In this document: one piece after another, positions 6,683 through 20,859 of the stretch
Layout: the number at the start of each line of letters is the position of its first letter
Position numbering within the stretch: position 1 is the first letter of the stretch
NCBI RefSeq assembly: GCF_000167355.1
Contig: NZ_AAEW02000025.1
Coordinates: 1-33,061 of the forward strand
Source of the DNA: Desulfuromonas acetoxidans DSM 684
Lineage (GTDB): Bacteria > Desulfobacterota > Desulfuromonadia > Desulfuromonadales > Desulfuromonadaceae
Reading direction: 5' to 3'
Length of the DNA stretch: 33,061 bases
Notes under the pieces: model-generated
Told to the model about the DNA's origin: nothing
Database searches by the model: none
Seen by the model: only the letters and a program-made list of their open reading frames with translations
Position numbers and translations under genes: made by a program

Positions 6683-9079
6683 ATGCCCCACACCGCGACA
6701 TCAAATATCGGCCAGAAAATCACCACAATCGTCATGCTCACCAGCACCATTGTCCTGCTGATGTCATTGGCAGCCTCGGTTTACATCCAGGGCACCACCT
6801 TTCAGGACAGCATGGTGGATAAAATGTCAACCATGGCGCGTATCATCGGTGACAACAGCAAGGAAGCTCTGGCTCTGCGCAAAAGCTATCTGGCTGAACG
6901 GGTCATCAACAGTCTTGAGCTGGAACCTTCGATCCAGTTGGCTTATCTGTTTGACCGTGAAAACAAGGTGACGGCGCAATACCGCAACAAAAGTGAAAGC
7001 AGTCTGGCACAGGAACTGAAAAACAGTCCCTTTAAAATCGAACGGATCAGTGAAGCTCGCGACAGCGAAAAGATGAAGCATTTTCTTGACCTGCGCCATC
7101 TGACTATCTATTCGCCGGTATTCCACGAAGGGGATTACATCGGTTGCGTCTATTTGCAGATGAGCCAAAACCTGATCATTCGCAATCTATTGCTGTTTGC
7201 CGTTGCCGCACTGGCCATGCTGGCTGTCACCCTTGGTGTCGCCTATTTGCTCACCACCCGTCTCAAGCGATTGATCACCCATCCGCTGCATCAGCTTGTC
7301 GACCGGATGAACGAAGTCTCCTCAGAGCAAAATTATTGCTGCCAGAAGATGCCGATCATAAACAGCGACATCGTCGAAATCAAGACACTCCTCGGCGGAT
7401 TTTGCCACATGCTCAAACAAATTGAAAAACGGGAAAAATCGCTGCAGCAGTACAGTCAAGGTCTGGAAACGCAGGTGCGTGAACGCACTAAAGACCTGCA
7501 GCAAACCAACGATGAACTGCATGTCACCATCCAGGAGCTTGATGACGCTAAAAAAGCCGCGCAAGAGGCCAGTGCCGCAAAGTCACGCTTCCTCGCTAAC
7601 ATGAGCCATGAAATCCGTACCCCAATGATCGGCGTGCTCGGCATGGCTGAGCAACTGATGAGCCGCGATCTCGATGATCAGGACGCCGAGCTGGTCAAAA
7701 CCATCTACAGCTCCGGCGAATCACTCCAAGCCATCCTCAACGATCTGCTCGACATCTCAAAGATTGAAGCGGGAAAACTGGAGTTAGACCTACATCAGTT
7801 CACCCCCATTGAGACCCTTGATCAGGCAGTTGAACTCCTTGCCGACAATGCCTTTAAAAAAGGGCTGGAACTCACGACCGTCACTCATACCGCCGTCCCG
7901 TCAACATTAACAGGCGATGCCGGACGTTTGCGCCAGATTATCCTCAATTTACTGTCCAACGCCATTAAATTCACTGGCGATGGCCACATCGTTGTCGATA
8001 TGAATTGGTTACCCACGAATACAACCTCGGGCAACCTGATTGTATCGGTCAAGGACAGCGGCATTGGCCTTGATGACGCAGCTAAAAACAACATTTTTAC
8101 CGCATTTACCCAGGCAGACAGCTCAACCAGTCGTAAATACGGCGGTACCGGACTGGGATTGACCATCGTTAAGCAACTGGTTGGCCTGATGGATGGCGAT
8201 ATTTCCGTGCGCGACAACGAAGACCACGGCTCAATTTTCACCGTTACAATCCCATTCAAATCCATTGCAATCAGTCCCGTAGAACCCCATGCAACGACGG
8301 TGACAACACGTTGTGCCATCGTTGCGAGCGAGAACCAACAACTCCAGCACATGCTGCGAGAACATTTAGAGGCCAGCGGCATCAGCGTTGCACTGTGCGA
8401 CAACGCCAAGTTGGCTCAGAATAAAATGGATAAAAAGAGTCTCCCTCTCGATCTGTTACTACTCGACAGCACATTGCCGGGAGGTGCTATCTCACTGTTG
8501 AAGTCACTCCCTCAAGACCTGCGGCCCAAGGTCATCTTCCTTGGTCCGCGAAGTCAAATGTTCAGCCATGAGGAGATGTCGCAGCTCGGTATTGACACGT
8601 TCTTACCCAAGCCTGTGCAAACAACAGCCCTGTACCAGGCGATTGCACCGAACACCCAGACAGCACACATTAAACCAGAGACTAAAACACCAGCACCTCA
8701 GCGAAGCAATAACCATCGCATCCTTTTGGCAGAAGACAATGATGTCAACCAGCGACTGGTCCAACTGATTCTTCGCCCCCTTGATTACCAACTGACCGTC
8801 GTCTCCAATGGTCAGCAAGCCGTTGAAGCCTGCGAAAAAGAAGAGTTCTCGTTGATTTTGATGGATTGCCAAATGCCGCTGATGGATGGCTACGAAGCGG
8901 CGCAACACATTCGGCAACAAGTGAACACCCCGATTATTGCATTAACAGCTCATGCTGGCGAAGAAGATGTTCAACGCTGTCGTGACGCTGGAATGATCGA
9001 CTATCTGTGCAAGCCTTATCGTCAAATCCAACTTCTTGACATGCTTGAAAAGCATCTCAAAAAACAGGTACACAGATGA
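6683..9079 (+). CDS. Hybrid sensor histidine kinase (CHASE8-like, HAMP, HisKA, HATPase, two receiver domains)
   Basis: 798 residues from ATG 6683, which has AAGG six bases upstream; the frame could open at TTG 6581, which has no ribosome site. Order: membrane helix about 14-36; periplasmic domain about 37-163 resembling CHASE8; helix about 165-190; HAMP; coiled coil 245-300; HisKA with phosphorylatable His309 (SHEIRTP); HATPase with N box LLSNAIKF, DSGIGL and GGTGLGL; receiver 1 at about 543-655; receiver 2 at about 679-795 with Asp728 and Lys777. Receiver 1 keeps Asp595 and Lys643 but has lost the acidic pair (IVASEN), so it is probably a poor or inactive receiver. The N of the usual PMNGVLGM is Ile here. 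No HPt domain is fused. The stop overlaps the start of the next gene by ATGA, so the two are translated together. Confidence 0.93.
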   Translation: MPHTATSNIGQKITTIVMLTSTIVLLMSLAASVYIQGTTFQDSMVDKMSTMARIIGDNSKEALALRKSYLAERVINSLELEPSIQLAYLFDRENKVTAQYRNKSESSLAQELKNSPFKIERISEARDSEKMKHFLDLRHLTIYSPVFHEGDYIGCVYLQMSQNLIIRNLLLFAVAALAMLAVTLGVAYLLTTRLKRLITHPLHQLVDRMNEVSSEQNYCCQKMPIINSDIVEIKTLLGGFCHMLKQIEKREKSLQQYSQGLETQVRERTKDLQQTNDELHVTIQELDDAKKAAQEASAAKSRFLANMSHEIRTPMIGVLGMAEQLMSRDLDDQDAELVKTIYSSGESLQAILNDLLDISKIEAGKLELDLHQFTPIETLDQAVELLADNAFKKGLELTTVTHTAVPSTLTGDAGRLRQIILNLLSNAIKFTGDGHIVVDMNWLPTNTTSGNLIVSVKDSGIGLDDAAKNNIFTAFTQADSSTSRKYGGTGLGLTIVKQLVGLMDGDISVRDNEDHGSIFTVTIPFKSIAISPVEPHATTVTTRCAIVASENQQLQHMLREHLEASGISVALCDNAKLAQNKMDKKSLPLDLLLLDSTLPGGAISLLKSLPQDLRPKVIFLGPRSQMFSHEEMSQLGIDTFLPKPVQTTALYQAIAPNTQTAHIKPETKTPAPQRSNNHRILLAEDNDVNQRLVQLILRPLDYQLTVVSNGQQAVEACEKEEFSLILMDCQMPLMDGYEAAQHIRQQVNTPIIALTAHAGEEDVQRCRDAGMIDYLCKPYRQIQLLDMLEKHLKKQVHR

Positions 9080-11295
9080 AACAAAAAAGCCAAAAAAGAA
9101 TAATTTTTGGCATTTTCTTGGGATGTTATTGCCTGCTATGTGGAGCTTTACTGGCGTGGATTGTTGAGCTGACCCCCCAACAACCACCACAGATTGAAGA
9201 GATTGTCTTATCCCCCTCCGGTAAAAGCCTTGAAATCACAGGGGAAAACCTCCACCAATCTCTTGATGCCATCATTACTCCTAAAAATTTCAACGAAACC
9301 TCTTTGGTGGCCAAACGATTCACCTGGGGAGATGTTTTTGACATACAGATTCATAAAGGAATTGCTTGGGCTGCTAACCATAAAAAAGGGATCATCGCAT
9401 ACAATATCGACACCCCGTCCAAACCATATGCCATAAGTTCACTGGAGCTGCCAAGAAATGCTCGGGTCTGGCGAATCACAATCACAGACCATTACCTGAT
9501 CACAAGCTCCACCAGAAGTGGTTTATATATTATCGACATTGCCAACCCTGAAGCTCCTGAATTAATTTCCAGCCTGCAAATTCCCGGAATAACAAATCAA
9601 ATCCTTGTTAAAGACAATCTAGCCTTTGTTGCAGCAGGGAACTCTGGCCTGCAAGTAATTGATATAAAAGATAAAAAAAACCCACGAATCATCTCTTCAC
9701 TCCCTTTGGATGCATATGTTTTTACCGTTTGCGGCAACGGAAATTTAATTTTTCTTAGCGGTGGAAGAATTTCCAACTCAAAAGATATCGGCATTACCCA
9801 TTGCATTGACATCGCCAATCCGGAAAATCCGGTAGAAATAAAGAAATTCTGTCATCACGGCAGGGTTTGGGACTCTTTAATTTTCAACAAAACTCTTTAT
9901 TGCGGAACAGCGAGTGGAGTCACAAAGATAATTCTGGAAAACCTTGATCAAAAACCAGAAAAAGTGACACAGGACATTTATATTTCACGTTTACATGCAC
10001 ACAAAAACAAGCTCTTTGTTGTGAGTCGCGACCAAAAAATCTATCAATATATCATTGGCGATCAACTTATCTATCAAAATACATTTCACAGTCCTCGCAG
10101 GACATGTCGCGCTATCGCCATATTAAAAAATTATGCACTTATAGCGAGCAACTCCCAAGGCATTTCTGTTATTGACATTAACAAACCAAGCGATGAAAAA
10201 AAACCGATTTTATCAACCAATAGTAGTTTGACTCAGAAAAAATTCTTTTTTAGGTACAAAAACTATATTGGCATAATTGGAAACAAGAGAATTACAATTG
10301 CCTACAGACAAGAAAAAAATAACAGTTACTCCATAATAGAGAAGATAAAATTCGATCAGACAATAAGTTCAACAGCACAAAATGAAAATATTATTTATAT
10401 ATCAGTCAACAATAAAGGTATATACGCTATAAATCTTGATAAAGACAATAACTTTATAGATGAAAATTTCCTTTCATGTAAAAGAAGCATTAAATCGATG
10501 ACGGTTTATGACAATAAACTTTATATTTGCCTCCATAAAGGCAACGCAATCGTTGCCGACATCTCAAACACACAACCAGTGTTAATAAATGACAATAAGC
10601 TTACTCTCGCAGCAGACTTCATTACATTTGGTAACAACAAAGCTTTTGTCAAATTACGAGGGTCAAACCTGAAAAAATTCGCGGGAATTTATGTTTACGA
10701 TTTATCCAACAACAAATTGAGTCTCGCCAGCCAAATCAACTCGGATCAGGCTTTGAACCAAACGAACGCTAGCAATGGAATATTTTTGAAGGGCAACACA
10801 TTATTGATGTGTGGATCTAGAGGAGTTGTAACAATAGATATATCAGACCTAGAACACCCTGAATTTCTTGATTCTGTCGAGTTCACAGAATCATGTGAAT
10901 CGGCACAGGTCGTTGAGGATATTGTTTATATCAATCACACGCAAGGCGGATTGTCTTTTGTGGATATCAAACACCCTAGAAGAATCAAAAAATTGGGACA
11001 CCTTGACTCTCCCGACAGGGCATGGGTTCTAGATGACCAGCTTTTTATGTTTGATAAAGCAGGAGATATGACGGTAACCTCTGTGCCCTTCAAACTTATC
11101 AAAAGCAACACACAGCAAACCCGATGCACTTTTGAACTACCTAAAAACTTCACAACAGGCCAATATGACGTGTTTTTTTCTGATAAAAAAGGATATATCA
11201 GAGTGGACGATGCGTTGTCATTCTCTGTGGAAAAAGGCTGGAAAATAAATTCCATAGACGTGAAGAAAGCCTACGAATTTCCAAACTCCATTTAG
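9076..11295 (+). CDS. Membrane-anchored LVIVD-repeat beta-propeller protein
   Basis: 739 residues. Residues about 9-30 form one hydrophobic segment after KKSQKR, a signal anchor with no convincing lipobox, so the rest is likely periplasmic. Residues 36-70 (LEITGENL) resemble an IPT/TIG-type start. From about 85 to 680 there are repeats of the form (Y/V)I(I/V)DI..P..P..ISS, the LVIVD repeat that folds as a beta-propeller. The C-terminal 60 residues look like a small beta domain (CTFELPKNFTTGQYDVFF). The start overlaps the hybrid kinase stop by four bases, which suggests a shared signalling role such as ligand or partner binding. Base composition is clearly AT-richer than its neighbours: 19 G/C in 60 at 10321-10380 against 35 in 60 at 7621-7680. 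No enzymatic motif is seen. Confidence 0.85.
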   Translation: MKQKSQKRIIFGIFLGCYCLLCGALLAWIVELTPQQPPQIEEIVLSPSGKSLEITGENLHQSLDAIITPKNFNETSLVAKRFTWGDVFDIQIHKGIAWAANHKKGIIAYNIDTPSKPYAISSLELPRNARVWRITITDHYLITSSTRSGLYIIDIANPEAPELISSLQIPGITNQILVKDNLAFVAAGNSGLQVIDIKDKKNPRIISSLPLDAYVFTVCGNGNLIFLSGGRISNSKDIGITHCIDIANPENPVEIKKFCHHGRVWDSLIFNKTLYCGTASGVTKIILENLDQKPEKVTQDIYISRLHAHKNKLFVVSRDQKIYQYIIGDQLIYQNTFHSPRRTCRAIAILKNYALIASNSQGISVIDINKPSDEKKPILSTNSSLTQKKFFFRYKNYIGIIGNKRITIAYRQEKNNSYSIIEKIKFDQTISSTAQNENIIYISVNNKGIYAINLDKDNNFIDENFLSCKRSIKSMTVYDNKLYICLHKGNAIVADISNTQPVLINDNKLTLAADFITFGNNKAFVKLRGSNLKKFAGIYVYDLSNNKLSLASQINSDQALNQTNASNGIFLKGNTLLMCGSRGVVTIDISDLEHPEFLDSVEFTESCESAQVVEDIVYINHTQGGLSFVDIKHPRRIKKLGHLDSPDRAWVLDDQLFMFDKAGDMTVTSVPFKLIKSNTQQTRCTFELPKNFTTGQYDVFFSDKKGYIRVDDALSFSVEKGWKINSIDVKKAYEFPNSI

Positions 11296-13708
11296 AACTC
11301 GTAAGTCAGCCCCACCCACAACTGGCGTCCCAGCTCATACTCGCCGGAATTCCCAGTATAAACTTTTCGATTAAAGACATTGTAGACATCGAATGTTGCG
11401 GTCAACAACTGCGTGTCGGAGAAACTATAGGTCCATTCGAGTTTCCAGTCGAAAATCGTTGAGCTTGAGAAGTCACGCATCTCGTAACTATCAACACGGG
11501 TTCCATCCTCAAGTTCATGATTTTCGCCACTATCGACAATCCCTTCATAACCACTGCGATAACGTGTCACATTGGTAAAGGTAAACCATGGTCCAGCTCG
11601 ATCTGATAAATCAGATTGGCGCTCCATTCCCGGTTGTAATCAGCCCGAGGCAGATCAAGGCGATAGACAAGATGATCTTCATACCAGACCATATCTTCGA
11701 AATCTTCGATTTCGAGCCAATCATCATAATCTTCATTGCTGTTTTCACTGTCCTGCCAGGTGCCATCAATGAGCAATGATTGATGTTCCCACTCACGCGA
11801 CCAGCTCATGGTCACTTCTTTATGACGGCTTTCCCCAAGATTTGTCCACTCAGTGTAGGTATAGCCATATTCGTCTTTGGCCAAAACCTGTTTTGTCAGC
11901 TGATCCTCACCATTGCGATCGATATAACTCAAGGTCAAACGGCCCCCAAAGAGATCCTGCTCAAGACCAATACTCCACTCATCAACATAAGGCGTATTGA
12001 GATTTGTCAAACGAGTCGTGGAAAAAGATGTACGCGTTATCTGCTCCCACTCCGTCAACGTGCCGTCATCATCAATGGTGCGCGTCTCTCGTTGCAACTG
12101 AGCTTTCTCTTCATTGAGGGCATAGGCCAGAAAGGTTTTCCCATAATAACGACTGGCACCAATACTGAAGATGGTTGCCCCATCAGCAAAAACATCGTAA
12201 AACACCGCGCCACGACCAGCGTAGTCCGTATTTTTCATCAGGTCGTTGTAGCTGACATGAAGTCCCGGACGAAATGCCAAACGCCACCAGCTCAAAGTAT
12301 CTTCAAGGTAAAGATCAACGGAGCTGATTTCAGCATCAGCACTGTCTTCCGGATAAACAACCTTACTGTAGGCGTACTGTTCACCTTCAATACAAAACGA
12401 ATCATCCCCATCACACATGACAAGATCACTGGTTTTCCATGCACTGTTGGTTGCATAACCTCGTTGATAATCCGCTTTAACCCGTTCAAACGTTATGCCG
12501 CTGATCCATTCATGTTTCAGCCCCCATAAGGTGAATGGCGTCCAGGTTGCATGGCTTGCAAGATGCAAGTTGTCTTCTTCGATTTCAATATCACCAAAAC
12601 CGCCTTCACGGCTAAATCGCCCCCCCCAATCTGCAGAAGGTGTTACCTGATAGTTAAAATAATCATCCGGGGCACTACGATTGTTATCACTGGTCGCATA
12701 TCCGGCCAACCACTCGACTTTGGCCAAGGAAAAATTTTGTTCAAAACTGGACGTTAACGACCAACCGCCACCGTCGATGCTGTAATCACTGTTTTTAACA
12801 TCATCATGAAAATAACGCCCCTCATAGGGCGTGGACATGAACGTAATACGTAACGTAGTATCGTCATGAGGTTTATACACGTATTTGGCAAAGTAATTTT
12901 CCAAGGCACGATACTGATTGTGTTTATCATCGAACGTTTTTAAAGGAATTTGCGAATAGCTTTTAGAATAGGCGAGCAGAACTCCCATGGTCTCCGTAAG
13001 AGGCACATCGACACTGGTATTGCCATAATACTTTCTAAATTCCGGTTGCATGTCAGCTTCTTTTGAGGAGTAAAAATCCTCGCGATACTCCCGATCAACG
13101 TGAAAACTAGTCCATTCAGAACGTGTTGAGCGTAAAGAGATTTCGCCACCAAAGGTCTCCTCGGGATCACGGGTTTCAACATCAACCACACCACCGGTAA
13201 ACCCACTGTAACGTGCGGAAATATTACTGCGGTATACAGTAATAGTGTCAACAAGTGACGAATCAAGAAAGAGCTGTTGAGAATGGCCCGGAACATCTGT
13301 AGAACTGGCCGGATTGTCTGAGGTGGGATCAATCAGGCTATTGTTGCCAAAGCCGTCAATCAAAAAGCTGTTATCGTAAACACGCCCACCGGAAATAGAA
13401 ATTTCAGCAGGGAGGATTTCGCCACCGGTCAAAGAGGAATTATCGGTTTCACTGAATTGAATGCCGGGAAGGACTTTGAGCAAGTCCGTTATGGCACCAT
13501 CGCCTTGCGGCAGCGACTGAAGTGTTTGCTTTGAAAGAACGGACTGGCCCGGAGTGGTCACAGCAGAGGTATCAATAACGGTGATATCCGGTAAGGTTTC
13601 CGGGTCAGATTCGGTTTGCGCTCCGGCAGCGGTTACCGACACCAGCAAGAACAGGACACACAGCCCCCAAAATACAGAATGGCGCACAGCGAACTTCCCC
13701 TCTCCCAT
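11292..13708 (-). CDS. TonB-dependent outer-membrane receptor, frame broken near 11594
   Basis: The upstream frame gives a signal peptide (VFWGLCVLFLLVSVTAAGAQ), a TonB-box-like start (LPDITVID), a plug domain (SISGGRVYDNSFLIDGFGNN) and most of a barrel, then stops at 11567. The last 100 or so residues continue in another frame down to 11292 and end in VGLTYEF, with the terminal Phe expected of a barrel. The two parts join at IYQIEL / GPWFTFTN. Restoring one G in the GG at 11593-11594 (minus strand) gives IYQIELGPWFTF and one frame. I chose ATG 13708 because the signal peptide begins there and GGGGAAG lies upstream; the frame is open to 13813. The substrate is unknown. The stop overlaps that of the propeller gene, which runs toward it. 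Confidence 0.85.
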
Positions 13709-14815: not shown

Positions 14816-16771
14816 TTAAAATCGAACCTTGCCTCCAAGATAAAAGGATTGACCTGCAGTCGCGTAACTCCAGGCTTCTTCGTAGTGTTCATCAAACAAA
14901 TTATCGATTCGCGCATACAAGGTCAGGTTGTCATTGACATCGTAATCTGCGGCGAGATTGACCAATACATACGCATCAAGTGTTTCAACCGCGTTGCCAT
15001 TTTCATCAAGAGCACTGCTAATCGCTTCACGCTCATCAACCCAATAACCATCCACGTTGCAACTGAAATCTCCAATTGCATACCGTATCCCGGCATGAAC
15101 CTTATGCAGGGGACGACGTGACATGCGGGCGCCATCCGGATCTTCGGTATCGTTGTACGTGTAATCGAGACGACAACTCAACGGTTTGTCAGCAAACAAA
15201 TGGAAAGCAACTTCCACACCTTCGGTTTCACTTTCACCATCTAGCTGAGCATATCCGCCAGGCCAAGCCATTCCAGGAATAACACGCGAAGAATCCCAAT
15301 CAATTCGGTCTTCAAAGATCGTGCGAAACCAAGTCACACTGGCGACAACCTGATCTCCGAACAGGTTTTGATCCACGCCAAGTTCCCAAGAACGGCTTTT
15401 TTCCGGATCAAGATCTTCATCACCATAGGCAGAGTAGAGTTCATACAAAGAAGGCGTTCTGAAACCGGTGGCATAGCTGCCGCGCACCGTGGTACCGGTT
15501 GCTTCAATCTGATAGGCAGGAGCAATACGCCAGGTGCTTTTGCCGCCAAAGCGATCGTGGTCATCATAACGAAGCCCGGCAATGAGATCGAGACCACCCA
15601 TGGTAAATTGATCCTGAAGCCAGACACTGAGGGTTTCGGCATCTTCTTCGTCAGCAGAAGAACTTTCAGAGCTTTCGCTTAAATAGCCGATGCCGGCCGT
15701 AAGGCGATTGGACGGAACCACCTGCCAGGTTGCCTGCCAACTCCACTCATCGGTCTTGCCGAGATAGTCGTAGGAATCGTTATCGTCATTATCATAGGCA
15801 TCACGCTCCTGACGACTGAACTTGTAATCGACATCCGAGATCACCTGACCATCAAACAACAGGGCATGAAGGTTGAGGCGGGTAAACAGACGTCGGGTTT
15901 CCAGAGAATTCTCTTTTTTTCCATCAGGAGCGGCGACATACGACCAAAGCATAGGGTCATAATCAAAGCGGTCACCAGCATAGCCGCTACCCCAGTCATC
16001 CAGATCCATTTCAGCATCGGCATAGCGAATCACACCGGTAAGAGTGGCTGCAGCACACAACGGTGCATCAAACTTGCCACTGAAGGTCGTATTCTCCCAT
16101 TCATCGTCTTCCGAGGTGTTTCCGGCATGGGGGATGTCGTTATTGTCGGCGTTGGCTATGGAATAACCTTGGCTGGTCAAACGTGAAACCGCCAAAGAGA
16201 AATCACTGTTGCCGAGTGAGCCATTCAGACCACCGGAAAACTTTTTGGTGTTGTACGTTCCCGCCTCGACACCGGCATAACCGTGGACACCTTGTGAACC
16301 GGATCGGGTGATGATGTTAATCACGCCTGCCGTGGCATTACTGCCGTAAAGAACACTCATCGGCCCTTTAACAATCTCAATGCGCTCGACATTATCTAAC
16401 AGGATATTGGAAAAATCAGCGCCGCGGTTCACATCTGTCGGGTCATTAGCGGCAATGCCATCAATCAACAGCAGGGTGTTTTTGGAATCAGCCCCACGGA
16501 TAAACACCTTGCTCGGCGCACCCATGCCGCCGTTGTTGGATAATTGCAAACCGGGAACGGTCTGCAAAACTTCGGTGACCGTTGTCAGATGACGCGCTTC
16601 AATATCCTTAGCAGTAATCACTTCAACCGAAGTGCCGCCCACCATCTGCAAATTGCCGGTGGTGCGGGTTGCAGTGACAACAACATCATTCAACGACTGC
16701 GTCGTCGGCTCCGCCCAGCCCAGTTGTGCCCACAGAGCGAGCATTACGCCCAGCACAAGCCTCTTCTTCAT
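14816..16771 (-). CDS. btuB: BtuB-type TonB-dependent receptor (vitamin B12 uptake)
   Basis: 651 residues. Signal peptide MKKRLVLGVMLALWAQLGWA, TonB box DVVVTATR at about 29-36, plug domain about 40-160 (KVFIRGADSKNTLLLIDGI, RIEIVKGPMSVLYGSNATAGVINI), then a 22-strand-type barrel ending in GGKVRF with the terminal Phe. The plug wording is close to BtuB. Function is supported independently by the cobalamin riboswitch directly upstream. A GGAGG site lies seven bases before ATG 16771. Transport genes for the inner membrane (btuCDF) are not adjacent within the window. It probably takes up cobalamin or another corrinoid. Confidence 0.93.
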   Translation of the reverse strand: MKKRLVLGVMLALWAQLGWAEPTTQSLNDVVVTATRTTGNLQMVGGTSVEVITAKDIEARHLTTVTEVLQTVPGLQLSNNGGMGAPSKVFIRGADSKNTLLLIDGIAANDPTDVNRGADFSNILLDNVERIEIVKGPMSVLYGSNATAGVINIITRSGSQGVHGYAGVEAGTYNTKKFSGGLNGSLGNSDFSLAVSRLTSQGYSIANADNNDIPHAGNTSEDDEWENTTFSGKFDAPLCAAATLTGVIRYADAEMDLDDWGSGYAGDRFDYDPMLWSYVAAPDGKKENSLETRRLFTRLNLHALLFDGQVISDVDYKFSRQERDAYDNDDNDSYDYLGKTDEWSWQATWQVVPSNRLTAGIGYLSESSESSSADEEDAETLSVWLQDQFTMGGLDLIAGLRYDDHDRFGGKSTWRIAPAYQIEATGTTVRGSYATGFRTPSLYELYSAYGDEDLDPEKSRSWELGVDQNLFGDQVVASVTWFRTIFEDRIDWDSSRVIPGMAWPGGYAQLDGESETEGVEVAFHLFADKPLSCRLDYTYNDTEDPDGARMSRRPLHKVHAGIRYAIGDFSCNVDGYWVDEREAISSALDENGNAVETLDAYVLVNLAADYDVNDNLTLYARIDNLFDEHYEEAWSYATAGQSFYLGGKVRF

Positions 16772-16873: not shown

Positions 16874-16894
16874 CAACTTTCGCCACGAAAGTTG
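16874..16894 (-). promoter_or_regulatory. Perfect hairpin between aptamer and terminator
   Basis: CAACTTTCG and CGAAAGTTG form nine perfect pairs around a three-base loop. It sits in the expression platform of the btuB riboswitch. It may be part of the antiterminator switch or a pausing element; the sequence does not decide which. Confidence 0.45.
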
Positions 16895-16904
16895 CAACCA
16901 TTGC

Positions 16905-17063
16905 GTTTCAGGCAGGTCTTCTGGCTTCCAGATCTTCCGTCTCAACACGCCTTCCCGACTCTAAGTCAGTGGCCAAATGTGTTGATCGTCCCTGGTTACA
17001 GCGGCGGGCCCACTCCCGAATTTCACGGAATTCCCTATTGTGCTTGCAACAAGCACCTGAAAC
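16905..17063 (-). ncRNA. Cobalamin riboswitch
   Basis: On the minus strand the aptamer is closed by a perfect eight-base P1 (GTTTCAGG at 17063-17056 with CCTGAAAC at 16912-16905). Conserved blocks follow in the right order: AGGGAATTCCGTGAAATTC, GGGAGTGGGCCCGCCGCTGT, GAGTCGGGAAG and GCCAGAAGACCTGCC. These are the class-I-type B12 aptamer boxes. It precedes a terminator hairpin and the btuB-like receptor, the classical arrangement for repression by adenosyl- or other cobalamins. Confidence 0.96.
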
Positions 17064-17186
17064 TTTCAGCGCAGACACCTTAAGAACACCGCCACCCCCT
17101 GTCAAGGCCAAAGTAACGCCAATCACAAAAGGTTCTGAACAACCAAAAATATTGACAGTCTAAGATGAACAACCACCCATAAATTC

Positions 17187-19222: not shown

Positions 19223-20260
19223 TTACAACAGCGTCACACCAAGGGTCATCAACAGCGGAAACAAGCCGGTCAACAACAGTTCACGACGGCTTAGACGGCG
19301 GGATTGGGGATAACGGACCAACACCCAGATCAGAACGAAGGCACAAATGGGCACAAGTGCCGGGATAAATCGACCACTGAGATGAGCACAGGTCAGAGCA
19401 AGCCACAGCGACAGCGGAGCAACATGCACGTACTTGAATGGAAGCCACGCTCCAATTGAAAATTGCGCCAACTCAGGACCGGGACACAACTTCAAACGGA
19501 CCAGTGCAGCGCTGAGAAACGCGACAATGATCCAGTCAGCAACACCGAACAAAGGCACGGGAAGAGCGCTTCTCGGCACCAGTGTTTTAATCAGCAATGC
19601 ATCAGCAAGAGGAGCTGGGCCCTGCTGCCCCGAAGAGTAGTAGTCAGTGATTTTGCCAACCATGGCGTGGGTTGGGCCGGCAGTAATACTGCACAAATCA
19701 GCCCAGGCCGCAACCACACACACCGGAATCAGCTCAGTGGGATGCTTCAGCCCCCGTGCCGTAACAATCCCAAGCAAACTGGCTGAGCTCAGCATCACAG
19801 CGCCGACAACCACGGTCAATACGGGATGGACACCGTCATCGTAACGATGATAGGCAAGAAGCAGAGCCAATAACAGCAAATTGATCGTCAATGGTCGCCA
19901 TAAAAGGGAATGAGCTGCACCCGCGGACGATTTTTCCACGTTAATCCAGGCGCTGACCAATAACGACGCCAAGATAATCATGACGGTGGCTGCCAACAGC
20001 GTTGCGAATGAAGAGTTTTCCTCCGCCCACGGCAACCAGCCTAGAAATAAACCGGTCACAGGTAGCAGCACCAGTATGACCAGTGCGTTTAACATAACAG
20101 AGATCTCAACGGGGCAAGTCCACGCCCACGGCCATGTTTCAACAACGCTCTCTCCTTCAAAGTATGGTTGAAATTCAAGGGCGGTTCTCTCACACCAGTG
20201 TGCGCTATCTTTCAAAAAATAACCACCAGGGCCTTTTGCAAGAACCATCTGCTGGAGCAA
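19223..20260 (-). CDS. Nine-helix membrane protein with presenilin/SPP-like motif order
   Basis: 345 residues if TTG 20260 is used (AAGGGG ten bases upstream); ATG 20248 (341 residues) or ATG 20095 (290 residues) are alternatives. About nine hydrophobic segments start near residue 56. Numbering from TTG: Asp188 lies in a helix (AAWADLCSITAGPTHAMV), Asp242 in the next (FGVADWIIV), and PAL is at 300-302 before a later helix. This order, with 54 residues between the two Asp and 58 from the second Asp to PAL, follows the YD / GxGD / PAL signatures of presenilin and signal peptide peptidase aspartyl proteases. The segment after Asp188 also matches presenilin in having GP and then MV. YD is AD and GxGD is GVAD here, so activity is uncertain. 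The gene stands alone and is divergent from a small membrane protein. Confidence 0.75.
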   Translation of the reverse strand: MLQQMVLAKGPGGYFLKDSAHWCERTALEFQPYFEGESVVETWPWAWTCPVEISVMLNALVILVLLPVTGLFLGWLPWAEENSSFATLLAATVMIILASLLVSAWINVEKSSAGAAHSLLWRPLTINLLLLALLLAYHRYDDGVHPVLTVVVGAVMLSSASLLGIVTARGLKHPTELIPVCVVAAWADLCSITAGPTHAMVGKITDYYSSGQQGPAPLADALLIKTLVPRSALPVPLFGVADWIIVAFLSAALVRLKLCPGPELAQFSIGAWLPFKYVHVAPLSLWLALTCAHLSGRFIPALVPICAFVLIWVLVRYPQSRRLSRRELLLTGLFPLLMTLGVTLL

Positions 20261-20394
20261 TGTCTATTTACCCCTTGCCAACACCAGAAACATAAACTAG
20301 CATAAATTACTCTTCATTCATTTTTATTTTCTTGTCTATCTGTCAACCTAAAGAAGACTGGGGTCTGCTTCATCTTCAGTTAAGGGGGTTTCTC

Positions 20395-20859
20395 ATGGAA
20401 GAATTAAACGATTGGAAATTTTTCTGGCCTAAGACCGATAGTTTGCCGAAAGCCACAACAGCAGCACGACAGGGCTTTATTGCAGCAATTTTTATCGCCT
20501 GCGTGTCGCCGCCCTACATGCTACCCACTTTGCTCTCTGCAGGATTGCAGCAACATTTTTACATTATCTTCATACCAACTCTTTTTTATGGCGTGTTAGC
20601 GGTCTTTGTTTATAAAATGTCGCGCGTTGCGGCACTGGTCGGATTTCTGGTTTTTTTACCGAGATTCGTAATCCATCTTCTTGAGCCTGGATTTACGAGC
20701 ATCGTCTGGGTTGCCCTTGCACTTGCGTTTATCAATTCAATTCGTGGTACTTTCGCTTATCACAAACATGCCAGGCAACCTCAAGAGAGCATAACCACCG
20801 CAGAGAAAACATTATCAGTCGCAGTCCCACCAACCTGTGATTCAACAACAACAGAGTAA
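20395..20859 (+). CDS. Small membrane protein of unknown function
   Basis: 154 residues from ATG 20395, chosen because AAGGGGG lies six bases upstream; the frame is open from 20332 without a site. Four hydrophobic segments are visible (about 23-45, 52-73, 76-97, 100-120), followed by a polar, Thr-rich cytosolic-looking tail. No catalytic motif is recognised. It is divergent from the presenilin-like gene with about 135 bases between, so the two may share a control region. I do not recognise the family. Confidence 0.75.
   Translation: MEELNDWKFFWPKTDSLPKATTAARQGFIAAIFIACVSPPYMLPTLLSAGLQQHFYIIFIPTLFYGVLAVFVYKMSRVAALVGFLVFLPRFVIHLLEPGFTSIVWVALALAFINSIRGTFAYHKHARQPQESITTAEKTLSVAVPPTCDSTTTE

Follow-up and report, generated by a model that had tools for sequence, protein, structure and literature searches.

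A putative presenilin/SPP-like diaspartyl membrane protein family in the Desulfobacterota

Does a membrane protein gene of Desulfuromonas acetoxidans DSM 684 encode a bacterial counterpart of presenilin and signal peptide peptidase (SPP)? The question is raised by an open reading frame (ORF) at 19223-20260 on the reverse strand of the window, i.e., the whole stretch of 33,061 nucleotides that was analysed. A first-pass annotation, made from the sequence alone, read the product as a divergent bacterial member of the A22 aspartyl intramembrane proteases that may have lost its activity. Known bacterial intramembrane proteases comprise the rhomboids, the site-2 proteases and the prepilin peptidases, and a paper of 2000 with "bacterial polytopic aspartyl proteases" in its title reportedly deals with type IV prepilin peptidases. 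Among the titles listed from the open-licence literature, none reports a bacterial presenilin or SPP, although an earlier report is possible. The portions of PMC9282858 and PMC7366577 used here regard presenilin and SPP as enzymes of eukaryotes or archaea. Based on residue conservation and predicted structure, we propose that the gene product is probably a bacterial diaspartyl intramembrane protease, which would work like SPP and presenilin and is not filed in A22.

Gene limits, selection and distribution

The ORF at 19223-20260 exists and reads as the first-pass annotation described it, but the gene does not include its first 55 residues, which are part of the mechanical ORF alone. The earliest start of any match to another genome in the protein search lies at residue 52 of the ORF, and the stretch matching the 55-codon extension contains six and three in-frame stops in the two nearest relatives. 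Since the matches begin at residue 52 or later and the relatives carry these upstream stops, the gene start is placed at 20095, which divides the ORF as follows:

19223..20095, reverse strand: presenilin/SPP-like membrane protein gene, 290 aa, stop codon included, with its start ATG at 20095
20096..20260, reverse strand: upstream part of the mechanical ORF, 55 codons long, outside the gene, without cross-genome matches save for the last few codons

The corrected numbering of the 290-aa target protein, used hereafter, gives Asp133, Asp187 and a PAL motif at 245-247, corresponding to Asp188, Asp242 and PAL 300-302 in the numbering of the ORF. The gene is under purifying selection, with dN 0.11 and dS 0.58 against the nearest relative and dN/dS values of 0.31/1.49 for the second relative.

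A protein search detects homologues in 30 of 58 genomes, that of D. acetoxidans DSM 684 included. Within the order, a profile search detects them in 72 of 136 genomes, or in 50 of 84 when only the good ones are counted; across the phylum, two of the 297 genomes sampled contain one, namely that of DSM 684 and a second from its order. A scan of GTDB contigs yields 58 loci, whose titles mostly name Desulfuromonadales, Desulfobacterales or "Deltaproteobacteria"; the scan consists of two short patterns, so that forms elsewhere with other motifs would escape it. The plasmid search returns no plasmid copies of the family, and none of the three pattern matches in viral contigs is confirmed. The canonical archaeal type of A22 protease is not seen elsewhere in the phylum either, with PF06550 in 0 of 148 genomes. 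The loci share no conserved neighbourhood that could hint at a pathway, the commonest other family occurring in 10 of 59 loci at a variable distance.

Among the congeners of the target organism, two carry nearer relatives of the protein (82% and 63%), six carry none, and one (genome G009) carries a member of a shorter subtype, L025, which is 39% identical to the target protein over the match. The presence of two subtypes inside one genus suggests transfer or differential loss. A role as a substitute for SppA was considered and rejected, as S49 is present in 128 of the 136 genomes of the order and in 82 of the 84 good ones. The only two good genomes without S49, G015 and G035, are 99-100% complete members of one genus, and both possess the presenilin-like gene.

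Conserved residues and predicted architecture

Conservation was assessed in several sequence sets. A1 consists of 30 sequences, namely the target protein and 29 relatives from a motif-free search. A2 consists of 56 sequences and was partly selected by motifs; three of the 58 loci, L049 (partial), L088 (cut by a contig end) and L085 (with a long extension), are not in it; the search patterns held both Asp residues, so that the Asp counts in A2 are partly built in. A further set, A3, comprises 71 distinct cores kept from 85 excised, and A4 comprises 43 of the 56 A2 sequences. The features of the gene to which the conservation and the predicted structures draw attention are as follows, in the order of the protein:

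19679..19741, reverse strand: fifth membrane helix, residues 119-139, with the first Asp (AlphaFold model)
19697..19699, reverse strand: codon of Asp133, candidate catalytic residue and first Asp (Asp188 in the ORF), in 30/30 A1 and 56/56 A2
19634..19675, reverse strand: helix following the first Asp, residues 141-154, in a position like that of TM6a, with invariant Gly140-Pro141 (model, conservation and comparison with the archaeal enzyme PSH in the part of PMC9282858 used)
19544..19594, reverse strand: beta-hairpin, strands 168-171 and 180-184, with invariant Lys170, ending three residues before the second Asp (models and conservation)
19496..19543, reverse strand: sixth membrane helix, residues 185-200, with the second Asp (AlphaFold model)
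19535..19537, reverse strand: codon of Asp187, candidate catalytic residue and second Asp (Asp242 in the ORF), in FGVAD, in 30/30 A1 and 56/56 A2
19355..19363, reverse strand: PAL motif, residues 245-247, opening the eighth helix, with Pro in 30/30 and 56/56

The two Asp residues, FGVAD and PAL are all present where the first-pass annotation had read them, with Asp133 and Asp187 54 residues apart and PAL 58 residues past the second Asp. Both Asp residues, whose conservation in orthologues had been named as a check on the earlier reading, occur in every sequence of the motif-free set A1; among the loci found by pattern, they occur in 58 of 58 and in 57 of 57 readable cases, counts to which the Asp-containing search patterns contribute. 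Constant throughout A1 are Asp133, Gly140-Pro141, Lys170, Gly184, Asp187, Pro245 and Leu247, some members of which are only 24% identical to the target protein. The residues around the two Asp differ from the familiar signatures. The position preceding the first Asp is occupied in A1 by Ala (26 of 30), Val (3) or Thr (1), and the Tyr of a YD motif is found in none of the A1 (30) or A2 (56) sequences. At the second Asp, the first Gly of GxxD is retained in 30 of 30 A1 sequences, the residue immediately before the Asp is Ser in 18, Ala in 7, Thr in 4 and Val in 1, and no sequence of either A1 (30) or A2 (56) has the second Gly of GxGD. The PAL motif keeps Pro and Leu throughout A1, with Ala (28) or Gly (2) between them; in the 56 sequences of A2, its three positions are Pro (56), Ala or Val (48 and 8), and Leu or Met (55 and 1).

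Invariance is concentrated in one part of the protein. A1 has 19 invariant columns, of which 17 fall between Asp133 and Leu247 and the remaining two are Leu79 (helix 3) and Val128 (helix 5); A2 has 14, every one between Asp133 and Pro245. When the sequences and the predicted structure are taken together, nearly all invariant residues cluster at the Asp pair, the helix and hairpin, and PAL at the start of the next-but-one helix. D165, K170 and E121 are likewise invariant or nearly so. The order of the motifs, loosely defined, is found in 49 of the 56 A2 rows, in 0 of 36 flanking membrane ORFs and, after local shuffling of the target protein, in 41 of 5000 cases; it exceeds chance in the target protein.

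The AlphaFold model of the target protein, built without templates, has a pLDDT of 88.3 and a pTM of 0.87, and that of L036, a distant member 31% identical to it, a pLDDT of 93.8 and a pTM of 0.92. Helices of at least 15 residues in the target model span 2-20, 28-56, 63-85, 91-115, 119-139, 185-200, 225-240, 247-261 and 270-289, which fits the earlier count of nine membrane segments, with four before the first Asp and one after PAL. A plain Kyte-Doolittle scan was disregarded for this count, as it returned ragged segments that in some cases spanned one or two residues. The first Asp lies in helix 5 and the second in helix 6 in both models, and PAL begins helix 8 in the target model, immediately ahead of residues 247-261. 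Both models have nine long membrane helices and share the succession of four helices, the helix of the first Asp, a shorter helix, a beta-hairpin, the helix of the second Asp, another helix, the PAL helix and one last helix. Relative to the two Asp residues, the helix following Asp133 in the target model spans +8 to +21, and the strand ahead of the second Asp runs from -7 to -3 in the target model and from -8 to -3 in that of L036. The segment beyond PAL varies from 20 to 53 residues across the family and measures 43 in the target protein; it has 30 residues or fewer in 36 of the 56 A2 and 14 of the 30 A1 sequences and at least 37 in all others. Judging from these lengths, the members with a short tail probably lack the last helix and would thus have eight.

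Relationship to the A22 proteases

Searches with sequence profiles do not place the family in A22. The earlier reading led one to expect an A22 hit, and HMMER searches with PF01080, PF04258 and PF06550 give none. Neither the Pfam scans of all 30 A1 members nor the NCBIfam scans of all 56 A2 members contain an A22 match, and the family profiles find none among the PDB chain sequences. On the own genome, PF06550, PF04258 and PF01080 give one sub-threshold match each, none of them within the window. The same Pfam library assigns 272 bits to PF06550 in a haloarchaeal SPP that served as the positive control. The NCBIfam scans produced two strays, a lipoprotein signal peptidase (E 0.03) and an antiporter subunit (E 0.007), each in one of the 56 members.

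A direct comparison of the family core with four A22 pieces taken from PDB sequences (PSEN1 TM6, PSEN1 TM7-9, PSH and SPPL2A) was carried out with hhalign and is underpowered. The scores are low, and the best local match of each of the four pieces falls in the catalytic register, with GMGD and GFGD on FGVAD, PAL on PAL, and D...GP on D...GP. The real score was reached by 0 of 120 shuffles for PSEN1 TM7-9, by 1 of 120 for SPPL2A (a shuffle that scored 33), by 15 of 120 for PSH and by 18 of 120 for PSEN1 TM6; among 25 control membrane fragments, the corresponding counts are 1, 1, 5 and 6, and the single fragment above PSEN1 TM7-9 scored 21.8 vs 20.2. A combined profile of the four A22 sequences gives E 0.1, or 0.056 in global mode, and a two-sequence archaeal profile gives E 0.22 and 0.16.

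Fold searches lean towards presenilin. In the PDB search with the target model, ranks 1-9 of 234 are chain B of gamma-secretase at probabilities of 0.96-1.00 (best E 0.027), and in the search with the L036 model, the same chain occupies ranks 1-9 of 97 at 0.93-1.00 (best E 0.006); seven of the nine top gamma-secretase entries carry the name Presenilin-1. The probability falls at rank 10 to 0.21 for the target and 0.05 for L036, and the later rows, among the best 50 of the 234 and 97 matches, do not exceed 0.21 and 0.11, respectively. A viral library places a signal peptide peptidase from a Megaviridae sample first of 160 (probability 0.77, E 0.086), with the other rows among the best 50 of 160 at 0.15 or below. 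Neither archaeal PSH (4hyc and sister entries) nor SPPL2A (9k92) occurs among the best 50 rows of either PDB search, and these searches return no Foldseek E-value below 0.001. The structural check of presenilin likeness, which had been suggested for a predicted model, is thus divided: gamma-secretase chain B comes first with a wide gap, but the TM-scores of the nine top PDB rows are at most 0.40 (0.36-0.40, against the usual limit of 0.5 for one fold), with rmsd values of 16.5-22.2 A over the alignment. Because of these TM-scores, the high rmsd and the lack of an E-value below 0.001, a full-length common fold with presenilin is not established.

Compared part by part, the family resembles Presenilin-1 (gamma-secretase, A22A, PF01080) in the GP after the first Asp with a helix following it, in the strand just ahead of the second Asp, and in the PAL[P] before the last catalytic helix. 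The PSEN1 strand is R377-L381 in the excerpted text of PMC9282858, and it lies ahead of D385 (as numbered in the part of PMC2405781 used). The family differs from Presenilin-1 in having AD for YD and, in most members, FG[IV][SATV]D for GLGD, in lacking a long hydrophilic loop between the Asp helices, in placing four rather than five helices before the first Asp, and in an opposite predicted orientation. With SPP and SPPL (A22B, PF04258), it shares a predicted Asp-Asp loop on the outside, and the GFGD...CRRFD of SPPL2A aligns with the FGVAD...LVRLKL of the family at equal spacing; in contrast, there is no profile match, AD and GxSD/GxAD stand for YD and GxGD, and one helix fewer precedes the first Asp. 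Archaeal PSH (Methanoculleus marisnigri MCMJR1, PF06550) is, like the family, a single-chain prokaryotic protein, in which the Asp residues are 58 apart (D162-D220) against 54 in the target protein. The PSH models described in the consulted part of PMC9282858 contain a strand (beta2, A213-G217) before D220 and helix 6a (H171-E177) after D162, and strand mutants of PSH show decreased activity in the same text. The modelled strand of the family stands at the same offset ahead of the second Asp as in PSH; unlike the family, PSH retains YD and GxGD and has PPL in place of PAL, and no profile match connects the two.

The family thus displays the Asp pair in adjacent membrane helices and PAL before the last catalytic helix. 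It is not filed in A22, since YD, GxGD, an above-cut-off Pfam match and the arrangement of nine helices with Asp in helices 6 and 7 are absent. Of the claim that this is a divergent bacterial A22 member, the conserved Asp residues and the leaning of the fold search are retained, but the A22 profile match is not found.

The lack of profile-level sequence similarity to A22 and TM-scores of at most 0.40 are also what an unrelated membrane protein would show, such as a proton-coupled carrier or a lipid-modifying enzyme in which the Asp pair and the Pro-rich loop converge with presenilin, and the (near-)invariant D165, K170 and E121 could be those of a carrier. However, the order of Asp, GP, helix, hairpin, GxxD and PAL matches presenilin and PSH part by part, an A22 protease ranks first with a gap in two PDB searches and one viral-library fold search, and no other PDB match rises above a probability of 0.21 among the best 50 of 234 and 97; convergence in an unrelated protein appears unlikely to us on this evidence.

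Activity, orientation and proposed mechanism

A protein that keeps the presenilin/SPP fold may nonetheless have ceased to cut and may instead bind single helices in the role of a membrane chaperone or adaptor. The replacement of the Tyr of YD and of the second Gly of GxGD in all A1 and A2 sequences fits such a pseudoprotease, as does the considerably slower proteolysis of the PSH mutant G219A in the part of PMC2947513 used. However, the latter substitution slows proteolysis and does not abolish it, and the same excerpt says that the matching Gly change in presenilin and SPPL2b is also slowing; the quoted portion of PMC2405781 describes G384A in presenilin as a clinical mutant with raised Abeta42. 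Since PSH G219A is slowed and not abolished, an Ala before the second Asp is compatible with activity. This evidence covers Ala; the commonest residue at this position in the family is Ser. Furthermore, no variation occurs at the Asp pair, at the Pro and Leu within PAL or at the loop residues across the 30 A1 sequences, some of which are only 24% identical to the target protein, and an inactive family would be expected to drop a catalytic Asp somewhere. The suggestion that Tyr-to-Ala and Gly-to-Ala changes may have cost the protein its activity is therefore weakened, because they occur in every sequence counted alongside unvarying Asp residues, and we consider a non-cutting protein distinctly unlikely.

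An A24 enzyme of the type IV prepilin peptidase or FlaK kind, i.e., the other GxGD group, is very improbable: A24 enzymes have GxGD and two Asp, but no A24 family (PF01478-type) appears in the Pfam (30) and NCBIfam (56) member scans, neither FlaK nor prepilin peptidase is among the best 50 rows of either PDB search, and, to our knowledge, PAL and a hairpin ahead of the second Asp are not A24 features.

The orientation of the protein was considered from net charges averaged over 43 sequences. These amount to +2.56 for the N-terminal segment and to +0.88, +1.05, +1.95 and +3.07 for loops 2-3, 4-5, 6-7 and 8-9, respectively, the values for loops 1-2, 3-4, Asp-Asp and 7-8 are -0.35, +0.19, -0.47 and -0.05, and the short C-terminus averages +0.14. 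By the positive-inside rule, the N-terminus would be cytoplasmic and the Asp-Asp loop periplasmic. The first 14 residues of the target protein contain no Lys or Arg, so that its own orientation has to be judged from the other loops. According to the part of PMC7366577 used, SPP is oriented oppositely to presenilin and acts on N-in (type II) substrates; given a periplasmic Asp-Asp loop, the family would resemble SPP in orientation.

For a diaspartyl protease of the SPP/presenilin kind, a mechanism may be outlined. A substrate helix would enter between the two Asp-bearing helices and unwind, and its end would add to the hairpin strand ahead of Asp187. Asp133 and Asp187 would activate a water molecule, the peptide bond being cut inside the membrane, and PAL would shape the site. 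Given the predicted orientation, with a cytoplasmic N-terminus and a periplasmic Asp-Asp loop as in SPP, N-in membrane segments are the likely substrates, either what signal peptidase leaves of signal peptides or single-pass anchors already cut in the periplasm; we infer the former as candidates. The fuller proposal of an active third, bacterial branch of the presenilin/SPP type in the Desulfobacterota, defined by AD, Gx[SA]D, one helix fewer before the first Asp, forms with eight or nine helices, and cleavage of N-in segments on the periplasmic side, is put forward tentatively, as a possibility that we would lean slightly against in its entirety. If it holds, a bacterial branch with both signatures altered would show what a diaspartyl site really needs, would provide small single-chain models for the presenilin mechanism and for inhibitors, would bear on where the presenilin/SPP family arose, and would add one more intramembrane protease to the known bacterial set.

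Several further features lie elsewhere in the window. A small hydrophobic ORF at 20332-20859 on the forward strand, perhaps starting at an ATG near 20392 (155 aa), is divergent to the target gene and has no match in Pfam, NCBIfam or PHROGs. A Cobalamin riboswitch (113 bits) at 16894-17075 on the reverse strand lies just upstream of the ORF at 14816-16771, which by eye reads like a TonB-dependent receptor. The ORF at 9076-11295 on the forward strand (739 aa) looks repetitive by eye, with repeats that are presumably beta-propeller-like, and extends into 10001-12000, where GC drops to 0.395, the minimum among the 2-kb steps of the window.
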